Origin: Cytospora piceicola
Taxonomy: Eukaryota; Ascomycota; Sordariomycetes; Diaporthales; Cytosporaceae
Assembly (NCBI GenBank): GCA_023375675.1
Contig: JALQBC010000036.1
Location: forward strand, 372,001 to 436,000
Reading direction: 5' to 3'
DNA: 64,000 nt
Part shown: positions 6,540-64,000 of the stretch, in pieces
Layout of the letters: each line of letters starts with the position of its first letter
How positions within the stretch are numbered: position 1 is the stretch's first letter
The notes under the pieces: generated by a model
What the model saw: the letters and a program-made list of their open reading frames with translations, nothing else
What the model was told of the DNA's origin: nothing
The model's database searches: none
Position numbers and translations under genes: made by a program

Positions 6540-9500
6540 ATGCACTTCATGCCCGCAAAGCGCAGGCGGTTCTCTGCCTCGACACCACACCCGCATCCAC
6601 CGCATCCACCTCAACATCGACACAATGGTGCAATGCCATACGACTCTCGCCCGTCCGGTGACGACCGCAGAGTGAGAGGAAGGAACGACCGAGGCATGAG
6701 TGATTCCATCATACCTTCAAGACCGCCCTTATCTCCCCCAGGCCGTACTGCTGCCCCACACGCCGCTCAAGCTGCACCAAGAAGAGAAGCCGGCCGAGAC
6801 GGAAATATAGATAGTAGTAGACCACTTCCAACAGACCGTCACCGACACCGACACCATCAACCACCTAACCCTCACCCTCGACGACGCTCCCGCAGCCCTC
6901 AACGGCCTCCACATCCTGCTCAAACCCGTCCTCGCAGATTCAGGGATCCTAGCAGAGACCGTGCTCGCCGGCCTGACGATTTATTTCCGCGACATAGCAA
7001 ACCAGGCTCGAGAGGCAGATCCCGGGATCGCGAGGCTGCACGCTCAGCTGATTTCCATCACGCGCCTCCTCAACACGCCAGAGGTCCTCCCATCGAAAAC
7101 TTTGGCAGACCGCCTCTGCGACCACGATCTCCACCACCCACCAAGCGACAGAGGAGTCCCAGCCCTCTTGCATCCGGGTCGCAACTCAAGCGGTTCCGGC
7201 ACGACCCTAGTCCACGGAGGCTTGACAGGGAGCTAGACACTGCCGGCCCCCATCCCTCCTCAATCCGCCCAGATACTTCATATCGTGGACGAGAGCCGTC
7301 CTTGACGCGCTCTGAACGACGCTCGAAGCAAAAAACCGGGAAGCCGAAGGCACTGCCTCACGACGCCCGCGGTCGATCGCCTCCACGTCGTGATCGAGAT
7401 TTTTCAGACAACCCCAATCTCTGTCCTCTGGGTCAGAGAGCTTCCCCACGCCACGACCACAGCCTTGCGTCCTTCTCTAGCCATCGTCGTCCCTCCCCCC
7501 CTCCTCGTCGTAGGAGCCCTCCACCCCAAGACAGCCGCCGCCCCTCCATACCGGGCTCGTTTTCTCGAGGCGGATACCCACCTGAATACGACAGAGAGAG
7601 ACACAATCATCCACAGCCTCCACCCAGATCTCCCAGAGACAGGAGAGAATCGTTCCAGTCAAGGAAAGAGAGGCCACGCGGGTTTTCCCGACCCAGAAAA
7701 GGACCTGCGAAGCCAGCATCTGGCCCAAACAGCATCGAGGTCAATATGTCATCACGAGGTAACTTTCGAGGAGCATATGGTGGTCAGTACCCCGTGAGGG
7801 GCCACTACAACCAAGGGCCACATTCTTCAGGCCATGCTACGCCAAACTCTTCATTTCACGGTACGCCTCCAGCCCAGTCGCCTTATGGCGGCAGAGGTAG
7901 CTGGGGTGGACAGCAGCAATACTCACCACAGAAGTGAGTCACATGAATCTTCCGGATCTTGATATTCGGTTGCTAACCCTTACCACAGTCAATTCCCCCC
8001 ACAATACCCACAGAATGGTTATGCACCGACTGCTCCAGCAGCGCATTTCCAGGGCAGCCAAGCCAACTCCCCGCCCATAGGCACTCCAACCGGTCCCAGT
8101 AATCAGTTCTCTGGGAGCCCGTATCGCGGAGGCTATAGAAGCTCTTCCAGTGGCGGATATCGAGGAAACAGCTTGGGTGCCGGCCGAGGTGGCAACCGTG
8201 GCGGTTTCAAGAGCGGGCATTGGGGGTCCAGCGGCAGTGGGTCCAGAGCTGCTTCAAGTCAGCCTGATGACCCGGGCTCAGGACGCGCATCCCCTAGAGC
8301 AGGGTCAATAGGAGGTGACCAGGCGTCCGTACACAGCGACTCATTGACGCAAGAGGGGGAGAACCCTTTCAGGCCGCCCAAGGAGCTTCAAGTTGAAGAC
8401 ACGACAGGAGACGAAGGCAACGAGACGCAGCCAATGCCCCCTCCAACGGGCCGACCGCCTCCAACAGGCCCTGCAGCAGAGAAGAAGATCAGCTTTGCGC
8501 TCAAGTCTGCACCGAAAGCCCCTGTGGCAACGCCAAAGCTTGAAATTTCTTCCAAGTTCAACGCCCCCGCGCGCAAAGATCCGCCGAAAGAGCCAAGCCG
8601 TGACCGTCACGATGCTCGGGAAACCAGGGATTCTCGGGATGCTAAGAGTAACCGGGATCCTCGAGGGGATCCTCGAGACCATCGGGATCATCGGGACCAT
8701 CGAGAGCACCGAGAACAACGAGAGCGCACTCCGCCCAAACATGCCGCAGATGGGCGGGATCTACCCCGGAACGTGCCGACTGAGCCTCGAGCAGCTAAGA
8801 TGGCTGGGGAGCAGAGGCAACGCCAGGAGCAGCAGAAGCCCCGAGAACCTCGAGTTCGGATGGTGAAGAAGAAAATGAAGCGCATAAAGGAGAAGCCGAG
8901 TCTCACAGACGGTTTGGCGAGCTCTGACTCGGTCTACTTCCGCAAGCCTGGCAATGAGTCCGTTATTGGTGCTGGCACATACGGTAAAGTTTTCAAGGCG
9001 CTACATGTTTATACCAAAAAACTTGTTGCTCTGAAGAGGATACGGATGGAGGGCGAGAGAGATGGTTTCCCTGTCACAGCTGTCAGAGAGATCAAGCTGC
9101 TTCAGTCCCTGAGACACATCAACATTGTCGCCTTGTTGGAAGTGATGGTCGAAAAGAACGAGTGCTACATGGTCTTCGAATACATGTCACACGATCTGAC
9201 GGGCATCTTGAACCACCCAACCTTCAAGCTTGAGGCGGCTCATAGGAAACACCTATCGAAGCAACTCTTTGAAGGCCTCGATTATCTGCATCAGCGTGGC
9301 GTTCTGCACCGAGACATCAAAGCCGCCAATATTTTGGTGAGCGCCGATGGTATACTCAAGTTGGCTGACTTTGGTCTGGCCCGCTTTTACGCCAAACGGC
9401 ATCAACTTGATTACACGAACCGTGTTATCACCATCTGGTATCGCTCGCCTGAGTTGCTGCTTGGAGAGACCCAATACAGCCCTGCTGTAGACATCTGGAG

Positions 9501-10183
9501 CGCCGCGTGCGTGATGGTCGAGATCTTCACCCGGCGTGCCATCTTCCCCGGCGATGGCGGGGAGATCAGCCAGCTGGACAAGATCTATTCGGTACTCGGC
9601 ACACCACACAGATCTGAGTGGCCTGGACTGGTCGATATGCCTTGGTTTGAGCTGTTGCGACCCGGAGTGAGGAAACCAAACGTCTTTGCTGAACAGTACG
9701 AGGAGAGACTCCCACCCGCGGCGTTCAAGCTGCTCGCCGACATGCTGCAGTATGACCCCGTCAAAAGACCGACGGCGGCTGAAGTTCTCGAGCATCACTA
9801 CTTCACCACGGAGTCACCCCCTCCGCGGCAAGCAGTAGAGTGAGTACTCCCGGGTTTTTACTTATTCCCACCCTTCATCCAAAGTAGGGGCATGGATACT
9901 AACCGTCTTGTGCAGGCTCCAACAAATCGACGGTGACTGGCACGAATTCGAAAGCAAAGCGCTCCGGCGAGAAAATGAGCGGAAGGACAGAGAAGCCCGA
10001 AAGGCTGCCGAGAAGGCAGGCTCGGGATCATCAACCCGGGACGGCAAGGACTCGCGGAAGAGACCGACCGAGGCGACCGAGGCAACCCGCGAGACGAAGC
10101 GACAGCATGTCGAGAAGCCACCGAGGGTCCCGGAGGCCACGGACGCGACGACCGCGGAGGCCACATCATCACACAAGACTTAG
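6540..10183 (+). CDS. ctk1: CTD kinase alpha subunit (Ctk1/CDK12-type cyclin-dependent kinase)
   Basis: This is the catalytic subunit of the CTDK-I complex, which phosphorylates Ser2 of the RNA polymerase II C-terminal repeats during elongation in the nucleus. The exons are 6540-7933, 7989-9839 and 9916-10183, giving 1,170 codons in frame; both introns have GTGAGT donors and CTAAC branch sites. The start is the first in-frame ATG, since the frame is open upstream only without one; 6549 is a possible alternative. About 780 N-terminal residues are low-complexity, rich in Arg, Pro, Ser and Gly with RD/RH dipeptides, as in CDK12-like kinases. The kinase domain (about 785-1080) has GAGTYGKVF, Lys814 in VALK, the cyclin-binding helix FPVTAVRE, HRD Asp907, DFG Asp925 and T-loop Thr946 in TNRVIT. 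The C-tail is Lys/Glu-rich. The TAVRE helix and TNRVIT loop favour Ctk1/Lsk1 over Bur1/CDK9 or Cdk1. Confidence 0.93.
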
Positions 10184-56815: not shown

Positions 56816-59800
56816 GTTGTTTTCAAAGAAGTTATTAAATATGCACGCGACAGAATTAGACTGGTCTTTGGGCCACTAGGGTGACCTGGACCAGGCGACG
56901 CCCGTGTTTTGGTGGAACAGATCGCTCGGGTCCTGGAGCCGTTGTAGGGTGTTTGGCGGGGGATTTGTATCGCGCCTTCTAGGTCCAAAGGTGGTTTGAG
57001 GGGGTCCAGGTGTCGAGGATAGTCGATAGATAGACCGGTAGTTTTGGTTGAGCAAGGAAGAGAGTGACTGAGAGCTAGTCTGGATGCACCTTTCGTCTTA
57101 TGTAGCTGGTGCCAAATTGAAGCGTTGTCGGGTCGATCGCATCGCTACTAGCACAACAATGTCGCTCCAAACACATATAATAGGACAGCAATGTCGTCGC
57201 AAGCAATGTTGAGGCTGGTTGAGGAGTGGTGGTTGCTATTGTTAGTGGCCGATTCACCGGTGTTCGTCGTTGTCAAGCGATTTGAATGGAGCTCGTCGTT
57301 GGCGACAATAGGGTTCGGCCTGGAGAGTTGGGACAGGATGAAGTCGCTGGGGCTGGCAATGTAAACTGCTAAGGAAGGCGGTGCAGGCAGGTGCAAGGCA
57401 CGGGAGGACCCTTCCCAATCAGAGCTGGTGCGCGCTGTAGGTGAGAGCCAAAAAGGGCCTAGCGTGACTCAGGTGTTTTGGCACTTCCTCCTGCAAAACA
57501 ACCTGACAACCTGGAAAGGAAGACACGACCACAACAGCCATAACCCATAACCACAATTACAACCTAATGACAACAATGAGTGTGTTATGGACGGGAGTCA
57601 TTCCTCTCCTTCAAATTGATTGACATGTATGATGTGGGTCCACATTTAATGGTGATGGTACAATCCATACAATCACCGTTGTTGTCATTATCACATGAGA
57701 CTCGTCCAAACAATGTTTGTTCCTGCCGCGCTGGCTGCGATTGCTGGTCTTCGTTGAGGATTATACGGTTACGGAGTGTTATGGTAGCGCGCCCACGTAC
57801 AGGATGATGCATCAGTTGAGGTGGCTGGTACCGGCACTCATAACATGGAAACGATCACCATTTTCCCTCCCTCCCTTGACAACGAGATGACGAGCGTTAC
57901 GAACTACAATGGCTTCAGTTTTGCAACTTGCGTGGCGTCGTCTTTTGTCATTATCCCATACAGTAGCATCAATTGTTGTCGTCTTGCCTCAGTCTCCCTT
58001 CCGTGTCCCTGGGTTTGGGAGAGACCTTTCAAGATTGCACGGGCTCTCTCCAACCTGGTATTCGAGACACTTTCAGCACGGTTGTGAAGCATGGCACACG
58101 AAAGGGCCCAACATTGTGGCAACATTGTGGCCTATTGTTATTGCTTTGCAGCCATGTCGCGTCAACGTCTGCTGCGATGCTTCTTCCAGGTCTGACGCTG
58201 TGTATGTAGTGTATGTGTGTGCGGGGTGGGGGTTTGCGCGACACTTGTCCAGTTTATCTTTAAAGCACGTTTGCGGCGGCGGAACGAAGGAGGGGCATTG
58301 TTTACTTTTTTGCATCTGGCAGAACACGGTAAATCCAGAAGCTAATGCAGGCCACCCTGTCGCCTGGGAAGCTCGGAACGTCTATCCAGTGGTTGGACTC
58401 CGCAAACGGCCAGTCAGTCAAACGCGTTCCGAATGGGCGCGTTCATCTGGCATCGATAGCCGAATTATCTGACTCAGGGGGTTGAATTGGCCTGGCTTGC
58501 TTTTGGCTCTGTAGACGCGCCTTTGCACGCCGCCTGATAAAGCTCCAGCCCGCTCCAACGGCCGCCCAGCTCGGACGCCACACCACGCTTCATGATAAAC
58601 GCGCCGTTTTCGCGTCTGATTTAATTTAAGGAGATCCCCCACCAAGCACACTTGAATAACATCGGGCCCGGTCCGTCAAAGAAAGAAAAATCAACAGGTA
58701 CACATCGACAGTCTGATAGGACATTGGCCGTTTTCGGTGTACAACCAATCCATTTCTTTCAAGATCACTTACTACTGAGGTAGGTAGGTACCTAGGTAAC
58801 CTTGGAACTTCTAAGTACTTCAATATCACGCTTCAATATCAGTTCGATTGCAAGTGAAAACCGCTGGCCCCCAAGTATAGACTCAAGTAGAGAATTGGAA
58901 ATGCTGCTCTGGCTCCTCAGAGGAAGGGGGTTAGGGGTCCCCTTTACGGCACATCCCTTCCGATGCTCCGCAGCGTGGGCCAAGCAAGATAACCTCGAGA
59001 TGCTTAATTACAGCCGAGGACCGTGCACGACTATTCAAAGCTGGACCGTTCACCCGATGAATCGGCTGCACAAACTCCTACCAAACTATCGATCTGAGCC
59101 TATATTTTCCAGATAGACGGATCGGGCCCACTCCACGAACTCGGCCCTTGGCATTTGTTATCAAACAACGATATACCCTACTGCCTTCCGGCCCTTGCTT
59201 GCAATTCACCCAAACCGAACTCCTCTTCAGGATCCACGACTGTTATCACAGCTAAGATTCGGCCAGAAAGCTGCCAGCACGACAGCACGACAGCACCCAG
59301 TACTGTTAATGCTCTGATGAAGGTGAACGGGCCTTCGATGAACAGCCTATCACCTGCACGCCTGAGACGACAGGTGAATATGCAGGTACTGCCTTTCACG
59401 AAGTCGTGCCACAGCGGAAGCATTAGAGCCAGCCTGCCAGAAATAACGACTTACCGGTATCTACAAGCCATGAAAGTCCCAGATGTTCAACAGGCTGGAA
59501 GTGCCACCGTTTAGGAACAAACCCAGAAGACATCCTATGTGGTGTTTCGGGGCTGGGAAGACAGTCATCTACAATGTCTCGAGTACATCTGTTCAAACTT
59601 ACCCTTATGTCTCGTATTGTTGCTTCTTCTTTTTCCTCTTCTTCTTCCTCTTCTTCTTCTTCTTCTTGTTTTGTGTTCCTCTTTCTTCACGGTATCCTCG
59701 GGCTGTAAGCATCGAGACGACGTTGCGCCACTTAACGCCTCACGTGTGCAATATATCACTGCTCGCTGCAACCCGTCTTTACCCCTACACCTATAACATG

Positions 59801-60958
59801 TTTCCCTATGTGCTACTATACCCATCCATGCCATACACAGAAAAGCACAATGATAAGACGTCCGTCCGAGTTCTGTTACATCTTCTACCAACCAGTATGC
59901 TGTTGGGCAAGAAACCGCATGACCAGAAGCAATTCCCCATGCCGTTAATATGCAATTTCTTTTCGTCGTGGATACACTCGATGAGTGGCTCCCTGGAGAC
60001 CTTTCCCACGATCGATGATTCACACAATGATCCCATAGGGAACCCGGGCCCATGACGTTCCTGCCCCTCTGGGAGGATGCCTTGCCCCAGAAACCCAATT
60101 ACACCTGGAATGAGTGGGCGGAGACACTTGACTTCAGGAGGATTGCGGTGCGAGAGATATATATCGACATCACTCCTCGCTTGGTCAAAGCGCGGCGTGC
60201 CCGCAGATGATCAGAGCAAGCCATGCACAGCGGTGTGTGGCTGTATCTGCAGGCACACCGTTACATGTTGTCTTGCGATCTGCGGGTACCTGCTCATCAT
60301 CGACCACAGATGTCTCGGTGGGCCGGCTTGTATGACGGTGGCGCTCGTTGCAGTACTGTGTACAACGTCGCGTGAGGCCTTGCGATGCCTCCTCGGCTAA
60401 GCCCGTTGCGAGTCAGTAAGCAATATCACTCGTCCGGTCAGTGACTGGGTTTGCTTGTCGAGATGTCCTTGTGTCGCGGCGGAGGTTCCGTGCGACGGAA
60501 CCAAGTATCCGCCATCCGAACAAAGCTTGTCTTCTACCCTTCATGCTGGGAAGCAAAGAGCCTCTGGCTTCGTCGCCCAAATGGCCAGCTTCAGTTTGCT
60601 TATTACCTGTGGTGCTGTAGTTAAAACAGTAGGGGGTTAAGATTTGCTCTGTGATAGTCTGGTCAATTTCTAGTGTGGCGCTCACATTAACCTCCTTCTA
60701 GACAGACACGCACCCACAATACCAATCCGGTACCCACAATGCTTTACGAACGATCCAATTCCGATGTACCGAAAAACATCCCGGTAAATTTGTCATCGTC
60801 ATCCGCTAAATACGTCTACAGGTGCTGCAGCAAATATATATCCGGCCATGGACAGTATATGTTGCCCTCAGGGGTTTCTCCAGATTCTTTCCTGACCTTC
60901 CCTCGCTCGTCCAAAGTCATAAGAGTAGTCATTACATGCGTACGTGGCCGTTCCTCGA
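56816..60958. other. Long divergent intergenic region between cdh1 and the RGS-LOV gene
   Basis: This 4.1-kb region serves as the upstream side of two divergent genes. No intact gene is seen. Features are a TAGGTAGGTACCTAGGTAAC palindrome cluster (58,780-58,800), a CTT-rich tract (59,622-59,667) and a minus-strand frame with a hydrophobic segment (59,178-59,423) of unknown meaning. Confidence 0.5.
59622..59667. repeat. CTT-rich pyrimidine tract
   Basis: This is a nearly pure C/T tract with many tandem CTT units on the plus strand, in noncoding DNA about 1.3 kb upstream of the RGS-LOV start. Confidence 0.75.
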
Positions 60959-63900
60959 ATGGCGGACACTCAGGACAAGCCTGTGATCAAAGGGGTTCGC
61001 CGCGCCTCATTCGCTCGCGCTCTCCACGTGCCAGCCATTGGCCGACGGAAACCATTCCAGATCGCAGAGGACACCCACCGCACTTCTTCCCCAAGCCAAG
61101 AACATGCCGACAATTCGCCTCAGCGCCTTTCCACTCCCCAGCACCTTTCCAGCCCCCAGCGCCTTTCCAGTCCCCAGCAAGATTCCTTCTCTATCGAGTC
61201 TCCCCGTGTTGGCAACCATGACGATGAAGGCGCGGCAATTCCAGACATTCCTTTGCGAAGACTCCCCAACACGAACAGGTCTGATATAGACTATAGTGGA
61301 TCGCGGCTTGCTATGCTAGAACAAATTTTGGCAGAGGGCGGTTCGCAAGAGCTCCTGAACGATCACCAGTCTGGGCCTATCAATCCTAATTCCGTGGCGT
61401 CGAGGGGAAGTTCGAGGTATGGTGCCCAGTTGACTGCGTTTTGGGAACCGCCTCACCTTTCCCAATCGAAGGACTCACGAGAACGCAGTCTTCCCAACGG
61501 CCCAGAAACACCACCTCCGCCATCGACTATGCGTGGAGCATCCCCCGAGTTTCTGGCAGCACCACTGCTGCCGCCTTGGCGTGAGAGCCACTCGGCCCCC
61601 CCGTCGACTGCAGGTTCTGTTGTGTCATCCCAAGACACTTTGTCGCAATCCACGTATCGGAGGGGTTCCCAAGATACTATGTCGCAATCCACGTATCGAA
61701 GGGGCTCCCATGATCGAGCCACCATCGGCTCGTCCATAGCCTCAGTCTCCCTGCAGACCGATCTAGCGCTACCGGCGCTGCAGACAAAAGGTGCAGACGA
61801 GATAGGCGATGCCCTAGAGCCTGTTGCAGAAGAAGACGTAGAGCCGGGAAGCTTCGACCTGGTCGTCCCCGCAACCAACATCGCTATGTACAATCTTGAG
61901 CGGCGGTCCGAGTTATTGTTTTCAGTGGACCATCTGCGGGTGATTTTCGATGATCCGATCTTGTTGCACAGGTTCACGAATTTCGTGAACACGTATCGGC
62001 CTCGGTCGGTACCACTGCTACGTTACTACCTCGATGCGCTGAAGGCGATCAGGGCTATGGAATGGATCAACAGCACCATCTCCAACCGTCTACACCTGGA
62101 TGGACACGACTTTTCTGCCAATGGACCCCCAAAATCGACGGAGAACGAATCCCTCAGGGGGGTGTCGGAGGCCGCCTTCGAGGCACTCGCACGGCACGAG
62201 CTACCTGCTTACATTACGCATGTGTGGACGGAGATCGTCGAGATGTCCATGAAGAGACGGATCACAGGGACGCTACCAGCGCATCTTCGTCATATGAGCG
62301 ATGGTCTGGCCGAGGTGTTTTGCATCACTGACCCGTCCAGGCCAGATAACCCAATCGTGTTTACTTCTGAGGGTGAGTGCCCAGATATCCCAACGAACCG
62401 AACAGGGTGGATCATACTAACAAGTGACTTGCAGAATTCAACCGAACCACCCAATATGGCCTTGACTATGTGATAGGGCGGAACTGCCGGTTCCTCCAAG
62501 GCCCGAAGACAAACCCCTTCTCTGTCAAGCGGATCCGGGACAACCTGGAGCAGGGGAAAGTGCATTCTGAGACGTTCTTGAATTACAGGCGAGATGGCTC
62601 GCCCTTTATGAATCTACTCATGTGCGCGCCTTTGATGGATTCTAAGGGCAAAGTTCGGTATTTCCTGGGCGCGCAGGTCGACGTTTCAGGGCTGGCGAAA
62701 GGCTGTTCTGGACTCGAGTCTCTCAGGAGGCTGGTGGACCAGAATGACGAGGATCAGAATCGATTGTTCCCTGCTCAGGGCCCACAGGAAAGCCTTACAG
62801 ACGACCGCCCCAAACAGGACAGCGGCGCAGATGGTAGCAATGGTGGTGCAACATCAGTTGGCACGGCGGCCGCGGCATCAACAGTTAAGCAAGCCCCCGG
62901 ATCAGGCGAGAACGAAGAGGACGACTTCCGCCTGCTCTGTGAGACCTTCAATGGCCAGGAGCTCGAGACGGCTAGGCGTTTCGGTGGTCGGATGCACCGG
63001 TCCCAGCAGGAGCAGGTCCAGCACCTCGAGACCGTCTCGAACTGGAACAAGCGCCGTGTGGTCATCCACGACAGCAGCGAGGACTCGCCGCCCCCGACGT
63101 CCCGACAACAATACAACGGCACGGACTCTTACGGCTTCAACGGGGACTTCACCCCAGCCTCACCCCGGGCCCCAGCTTCCGCCACCTCCCCTCCTCCCCA
63201 GGCCGCGTCCGCAGCCACCGCGGGCCTGCGCGGCACTCGGGTGCCGGCCATCTACGAGAACTACCTCATCGTGCGGCCGTACCCGTCGCTGCGCATCCTC
63301 TTCGCCTCGCCGTCCCTGCGCGTGCCGGGCATCCTGCAGAGCCACCTCATGAGCCGGGTCGGCGGGTCGCGGCGCGTCCAGGAGGAGCTGGAGCAGGCCT
63401 TCGCCATGGGCCAGGGCGTCACGGCCAAGGTGAAGTGGGTCTCCGGGGGGGCGCGGGGCGACGCGGGCAAGGAGGGCCGGCCGCGGTGGATCCACTGCAC
63501 GCCCCTCATCGGCTCCAACGGCGGCGTCGGCGTCTGGATGGTCGTCATCGTCGACGAGGACGAGCCCGGCGGCGCGGAGCAGCCCGACGAGGGCGGCGGC
63601 CGCCGCCAGAGGAGGGACGTCTCGTCGCCGGCCTTCAACGGCAAGGGAGGGGGCGGCGGCGGCGGCCGCCACCGGTCGTCCGACAGGCGCAGGGAGCACC
63701 GCGACAGCTCCCTGTGGGACTCCATGTCCCTGAACGACTTCGCCGCCATGAACAGCCTCCCGGAGGACGAGGAGCTCCGGCAGCACGTCAGGGAGATGTT
63801 CGGGGACGTCAGGAGGCGCGAGCGGGCGGCGCGCGGCGAGAGGGGGGGCAAGGACGTGCGCTACGACGACCCCAGGGCGAGGACGAATGGCGGGAGCGAC

Positions 63901-64000
63901 ATGGTGGGCTACAGGGCAGCTGATCTGCGCAGGTGGGACCGGGCTGGGAGTAGTGCTGGTGGTAGCCGGGCGAGCTCGCCGTATACGCTTCGGGTCGGGG
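60959..64000 (+). CDS. RGS-LOV blue-light photoreceptor (BcLOV4-like), partial at right edge
   Basis: Exons are 60959-62372 and 62435 to beyond the edge; the intron (GTGAGT donor, TACTAAC branch, GCAG acceptor) keeps the frame. The ATG at 60,959 is the first in frame. Residues 1-300 are disordered, with SSPQRLSSPQ repeats. An RGS domain lies at about 312-437 (RRSELLFSVDHLRVIFDDPI, HRFTNFVNTYRP, LPAYITHVWTEIVEMSM). A LOV domain follows at about 447-560: FCITDPSRPDNPIVFTS, then GRNCRFLQ with photoactive Cys489, FLNYRRDGSPFMNLLMCAP and KVRYFLGAQVDVSGL. Next come an acidic linker and a third ordered region (YENYLIVRPYPSLRILFAS, RWIHCTPLIGSNGGVGVWMV) that reads like a degenerate PAS fold. This order is that of fungal RGS-LOV proteins such as Botrytis BcLOV4, which bind anionic membrane lipids in blue light. 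RGS domains speed GTP hydrolysis by G-alpha. The C-terminus is outside the window. Confidence 0.93.
61627..61711 (+). repeat. 39-bp coding tandem duplication in the RGS-LOV gene
   Basis: Two adjacent copies, differing at a few mostly silent or conservative positions, encode QDTLSQSTYRRGS and QDTMSQSTYRRGS in the disordered region before the RGS domain. Confidence 0.85.

Follow-up and report, generated by a model that had tools for sequence, protein, structure and literature searches.

A BcLOV3-type blue-light photoreceptor gene of Cytospora piceicola and the probably RGS-like fold of its N-terminal domain

We questioned whether a gene at the 3' end of a 64,000-nucleotide stretch of the Cytospora piceicola genome (hereafter the window; positions 372001-436000 of contig JALQBC010000036.1, assembly GCA_023375675.1; genome 43.6 Mb, 99 contigs) encodes an RGS-LOV sensor of the BcLOV4 kind that tunes G-alpha signalling by light, as had been proposed from its letters (the original prediction), or a blue-light receptor of another class. 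The reading we favour, with a probability of a little under 60%, is a BcLOV3-class blue-light photoreceptor whose N-terminal domain is a divergent RGS-like domain, lacks the dyad of RGS domains active as a GTPase-activating protein (GAP), and serves for binding or as a scaffold under the control of light.

An intact gene with a complete LOV flavin site

Of 7993 proteins scored in a homologue search, 990 passed E ≤ 0.001, and the family results given throughout rest on the best 120 of these 990, aligned in 121 rows with the window protein. The gene has the following parts.

60959..62372, plus strand: exon 1, coding, from the ATG at 60959; residues 1-471 and base 1 of codon 472
60959..61804, plus strand: N-terminal tail, residues 1-282, of low conservation in the family alignment
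61886..62293, plus strand: N-terminal helical domain, residues 310-445, divergent and probably RGS-like, without the Glu-Asn dyad
62300..62700, plus strand: LOV domain, residues 448-560, split by the intron
62373..62434, plus strand: intron of 62 bp, GTGAGT...CTAAC...TTGCAG
62435..64000, plus strand: exon 2, coding, running on 11 bases beyond the window to a TAA that ends at 64011
62485..62487, plus strand: codon of the flavin-adduct Cys489 (Cys in 120/120 rows with a letter; 1 row gapped)
62920..63066, plus strand: linker motif, residues 634-682, ..EMFN.QEL.TVR..GG.MHR....NW.KPR.. in the family alignment
63241..63561, plus strand: C-terminal PAS-like domain, residues 741-847, without the LOV motif

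The frame is open from an in-frame TAG at 60926, upstream of the ATG, and the N-terminal MADT.. also begins the Cytospora mali homologue. A splice donor (GTGAGT) stands at 62373, and the homologues continue uninterrupted across the splice joint (five sequences compared), where column occupancy in the family alignment is 0.98-0.99. Reading the contig past the window edge located the TAA at 64011 and recovered the previously missing 3' part, which holds neither a premature stop nor a frameshift; the spliced product is 996 residues long, without an internal stop. The intact 3' end, reached 11 bases beyond the window edge, led us to reject a pseudogene or truncation. That the gene is a decaying copy without present function is hardly credible beside the intact 996-residue frame and splice sites, the invariant flavin site, and homologues in many ascomycetes.

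The LOV domain was matched by Pfam PAS_9 (E = 3.6e-13) and by phototropin LOV chains in the PDB (E = 2e-21). The GRNCRFLQ motif begins at residue 486 and its adduct cysteine is residue 489, the same count as in the original prediction. Nine positions, taken as flavin-site residues after phototropin LOV domains (R487, N488, C489, R490, Q493, R504, N521, N531, and Q552), were identical across the 120 lettered rows except for one R487Q, with 1 row gapped. The PAS fold, GxNCRFLQ, and the flavin-contact residues expected of a LOV photoreceptor are all present, so that on its sequence the gene is intact and holds a complete LOV flavin site, and the proposal of a blue-light photoreceptor is well supported. 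White collar 1 and VIVID also bear GxNCRFLQ in their LOV domains, which are 37-38% identical to that of the window protein; however, both carry an 11-residue LOV insertion absent from the window LOV, and no zinc finger was matched in the window protein at E ≤ 1.

The N-terminal tail is probably disordered, as its counterpart in the Bclov3 model falls mostly under a model confidence (pLDDT) of 50. It contains short in-frame repeats, one with two copies of SQDT(L/M)SQSTYRRGS (window 61625-61708) and another with units of the QRLSTPQHLSSPQRLSSPQ type (window 61121-61177).

Placement in the BcLOV3 class

Among the matches listed, a Cytospora mali protein is the closest that carries a name (73% identity), and the Botrytis cinerea relative (P0113) is named Bclov3; published papers give BcLOV3 as Bcin10g03870. 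A Monilinia relative (P0083) has locus tag EYC80_002606, which a published table (PMC7827745) identifies as MlLOV3 of Monilinia laxa, with a separate entry of 588 aa for MlLOV4, annotated "regulator of G protein". BcLOV3 and MlLOV3 share with the window protein a conserved core (for Bclov3, 50% identity over 77% of residues 301-996) and the same LOV motif, and are likewise without Pfam RGS at E ≤ 10. The window protein and Bclov3 differ in total length (996 aa for the window protein, 856 aa for Bclov3), in their low-complexity tails, and in the longer loops of the window protein. With core homology to Bclov3 and no Pfam-recognised RGS, the window gene belongs, as judged by sequence, to the BcLOV3 type.

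In a midpoint-rooted tree of 37/121 hand-chosen rows, the window protein clustered with four others, three from Cytospora and one unnamed (support 97/94), and Cytospora leucostoma joined at 90/84; deep forks reached 83/78, and the tree does not prove one-to-one orthology. Diaporthe amygdali carries at least two BcLOV3-type genes (P0107 and P0114 versus P0006, P0007, and P0042 in the tree). One copy, J7T55_001050, clusters with Colletotrichum (100/98), outside the Cytospora-Diaporthe group, which in this tree suggests old paralogy or gene transfer.

The literature, in the portions covered, lists the BcLOV3 type separately from RGS-LOV proteins, and one review places BcLOV3 under short-LOV but labels BcLOV4 "RGS, LOV" (PMC12941744). 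LovA of Fusarium fujikuroi and lov-u of Verticillium dahliae resemble the window class, by published description, in being LOV genes named next to a separate RGS-LOV gene of the same fungus, and they may correspond to the Fusarium and Verticillium relatives in our tree. In Zymoseptoria, Zt_Lov2 is 17.7% identical to Zt_Lov1, and the covered part of that report mentions no RGS domain for Zt_Lov2 (PMC9512790). For BcLOV4 itself, a review describes an RGS domain followed by LOV, then a linker with a polybasic amphipathic helix, and at the C-terminus a domain whose function is given as unidentified (PMC8993538), an order of parts that the window protein resembles, with its RGS-like domain first, when the two are compared by this published description and not by sequence. 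The likeness to BcLOV4 holds for part order, whereas the class is the BcLOV3 type, which the literature keeps apart.

Is the N-terminal domain RGS?

The original prediction had read an RGS domain directly followed by LOV; the LOV half stands on PAS_9 and the phototropin chains, while no Pfam match supports an RGS domain as stated and a remote RGS-like fold is suggested. Exon 1 gave no Pfam match at E ≤ 1. PF00615 (RGS), which marks Zt_Lov1 as RGS-LOV, did not recognise the window protein, was absent from the precomputed Pfam column of all of the best 120 homologues, and went unmatched in direct searches (0/16 family members at E ≤ 10, where HMMER filters discard most matches above ~0.1). Searching the PDB with a profile of the N-terminal domain gave three matches (E 0.39-0.77), none of them RGS. 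A separate protein search aimed at BcLOV4, with a five-row profile in which every row combined an RGS piece and a LOV piece, found none with PF00615 among the best 120 of 3485, these being phototropin, other plant and algal LOV proteins, or unnamed.

Predicted structure suggested a remote RGS likeness. Models were built on 53/120 homologues, after 3 without the N-terminal domain were dropped and the rest thinned at 85% identity. In a VIA structural search with the N-terminal domain model, rows 1-17 were all RGS or RGS-homology domains, as were 31 entries among the best 50 listed when judged by title, and RGS17 ranked first in Foldseek. The VIA alignment, known by its end points only, places window residue 324 opposite RGS4 61 and window residue 421 opposite RGS4 171. 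The 50 listed rows of a VIA search with the Bclov3 model cover its LOV or LOV-PAS part and give no retest of the N-terminal domain.

Fungal RGS profiles were built from homologues of this genome's own RGS genes and compared with the family profile by hhalign (rows after length filter: FlbA-type 60/82, RgsA-type 36/37, Mdm1-type 4/4, window family 119/121). The N-terminal domain aligned with pooled RGS at E 0.005 (probability 6.9, score 22.6), with window residues 323-362 opposite the first RGS helices in a register that agrees with where the structural alignment to RGS4 begins and ends. It scored 21.8 (probability 4.5) against FlbA-type RGS, and found nothing in the RgsA-type (probability 0.3, score 13.3) or the four-row Mdm1-type set (probability 0.2, score 12.9). 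True RGS pairs gave probabilities of 95 (FlbA-RgsA), 1.5 (FlbA-Mdm1), and 0.8 (RgsA-Mdm1), and no true RGS type scored above 19.3 when compared with the small Mdm1 set; the positive control, LOV against the LOV of WC-1/VVD, reached a probability of 99.3. The N-terminal domain scored 10.6 against LOV, and LOV and the C-terminal domain scored 12.0-14.7 against the RGS sets. With thinned alignments (40/119 family rows; 50/100 and 30/60 RGS rows), the N-terminal domain scored 23.3 and 22.2 against two RGS targets, compared with best scores of 16.6 and 18.8 over 60 column shuffles per target (0/60 reaching the real score) and 10.9 and 13.4 for reversed targets.

Alternatively, the domain may be an unrelated helical bundle whose RGS likeness comes from a common helix arrangement; the protein would then be a LOV-PAS photoreceptor whose helical output domain is specific to its class. 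We regard this as a doubtful alternative: the first 17 structural rows belong to one family, neither shuffles nor reversed targets reach the profile score, and the domain occupies the place of the BcLOV4 RGS. Taken together, the profile comparison and the models make a divergent RGS-like fold of the N-terminal domain probable rather than proven.

Catalytic residues, the C-terminal half, and the proposed mechanism

The Glu-Asn dyad (E87-N88 of RGS4) is conserved in human and fungal RGS domains and needed for RGS4 GAP activity, and N88, N128, and D163 are named contacts in a review (PMC8252600). Opposite the dyad, the window protein has S350-V351 if the structural end points run ungapped, or P352-L353 in the hhalign register. 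Asn occurs at 350-354, a span covering both candidate registers and inferred from the structural and profile alignments, in 0/119 rows. Position 417 is Ala in 119/119 rows and would face R167 of RGS4. Because it lacks the Glu-Asn dyad for GTPase activation, the N-terminal domain, on its aligned residues, is most likely not a G-alpha GAP but a light-gated binding or scaffold module; it may still bind G-alpha without catalysis. Some observations count against our reading: the N-terminal domain scored 19.9 over 12 columns in an unrelated control pair with the C-terminal domain, and an acidic residue at 414 (118/121) and Asn396 (110/121) could stand in for D163 and N128, in a loop that cannot be aligned confidently.

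The C-terminal domain (residues ~741-847), absent from the original prediction, appears PAS-like. In the Bclov3 model, its order of strands and helices is PAS-like, and residues 456-780 of that model, across both domains, are covered by alignment to LOV-PAS constructs from a histidine kinase of the LOV kind. A weak PAS_3 match occurred in 2/5 relatives and none in the window protein's own piece; the domain found no match to the LOV profile (probability 2.1), so hhalign misses the PAS pair too.

In BcLOV4, the polybasic amphipathic helix follows LOV according to the review, whereas the post-LOV stretch of the window protein (residues 556-592) is acidic, with a net charge of -2 (family median -2, range -5 to +1, 84/121 rows); such a helix may lie elsewhere, for example at residues 652-669 (net charge +3). 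These features bear on a true BcLOV4-kind RGS-LOV receptor, in which an active RGS domain would speed G-alpha GTP hydrolysis and light would drive a move to membranes via direct lipid binding. The published part order, the possible RGS-like fold of the model, and the presence of G-alpha genes in this genome would suit such a receptor. Against it are the missing Pfam RGS match, compared with 4.2e-08 for Zt_Lov1 (PMC9512790), the absence of the dyad from all 119 rows, the acidic post-LOV stretch, and the name Bclov3 of the Botrytis relative. We dismissed it as very unlikely, given the lack of both Pfam RGS and dyad. BcLOV4, LovB, MoRgs5, and Zt_Lov1 have an RGS domain that is recognised or annotated in the sources covered, unlike the N-terminal domain of the window protein. 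MoRgs5, of the RGS-LOV class, reportedly interacts with two G-alpha subunits, and its deletion raises cyclic AMP without a visible phenotype (PMC10056346, PMC3248559). The window protein may be a distant cousin of the RGS-LOV sensors and is probably not one of them. The RGS-like pattern first noticed may well be real, although neither the family name RGS-LOV nor a G-alpha mechanism follows from it, and light tuning of G-alpha GTPase activity is unsupported as stated.

In the favoured reading of a BcLOV3-class receptor with a binding or scaffold module, blue light would form the Cys489-flavin adduct, the change would pass via the stretch between LOV and the long helix that closes the N-terminal domain, and it would alter what the N-terminal and C-terminal PAS-like domains bind or how they pair.

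Genome context and significance of the class

A degenerate DNA pattern of the LOV motif matched the genome three times; judging by the LOV sequences and the lengths of the frames, we take these for white collar 1, VIVID, and the window gene. Of the five places that match Pfam RGS at E ≤ 0.001, none has an NCRFLQ-like motif closer than 1.5 kb. These searches therefore showed no true RGS-LOV gene, although variation of the motif or an intron within it would conceal one. Single-sequence searches of the genome found no second copy of the N-terminal or C-terminal domain at E ≤ 10. GATCGA, the white-collar site, occurs 4 times in 9900 bases of contig around the gene (6.93 expected), and so is uninformative as a promoter clue.

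Beyond the window, a 575-aa open frame on the minus strand (64504-66231) has several apparent membrane helices and resembles a fungal glycerophosphocholine acyltransferase. Further on, a long plus-strand frame (7873-9900 of the 9900-base contig piece) is presumably like the SMC1 cohesin subunit. Within the window, a low-complexity run at ~59620-59670 would encode poly-Ser if read on the plus strand, or poly-Glu on the minus strand.

One study of Botrytis counts bclov3 as a light-induced gene (PMC3886904). Another reports that this induction requires BcWCL1 and that, of the blue-light receptor genes, bclov4 alone does not respond to a light pulse (PMC10218500); bclov3 is unnamed among wild-type genes higher in light at 48 h in the covered part of a further study (PMC5034256). 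The covered literature, whose scope leaves out most subscription papers, mentions no RGS likeness and names no output domain for BcLOV3-type proteins.

More speculatively, the whole BcLOV3-type class, filed as LOV without a known output domain, could be a second, sequence-divergent RGS-LOV lineage in which light gates a degenerate RGS-like domain. That domain would bind a partner, G-alpha or some other, but leave the rate of GTP hydrolysis unchanged, and pairing or recruitment would fall to the C-terminal PAS-like domain; we consider this broader proposal unlikely as it stands. The earlier reading is also corrected in that the window protein should not be presumed to put G-alpha GTPase activity under light control. 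BcLOV3-type receptors occur in many ascomycetes (among the best 120 of 990 matches) and form a widespread, barely studied class. If the N-terminal domain is indeed a cryptic RGS-like fold, the class would gain a specific, testable output hypothesis and BcLOV4, already in optogenetic use, would be joined by another natural RGS-LOV scaffold.
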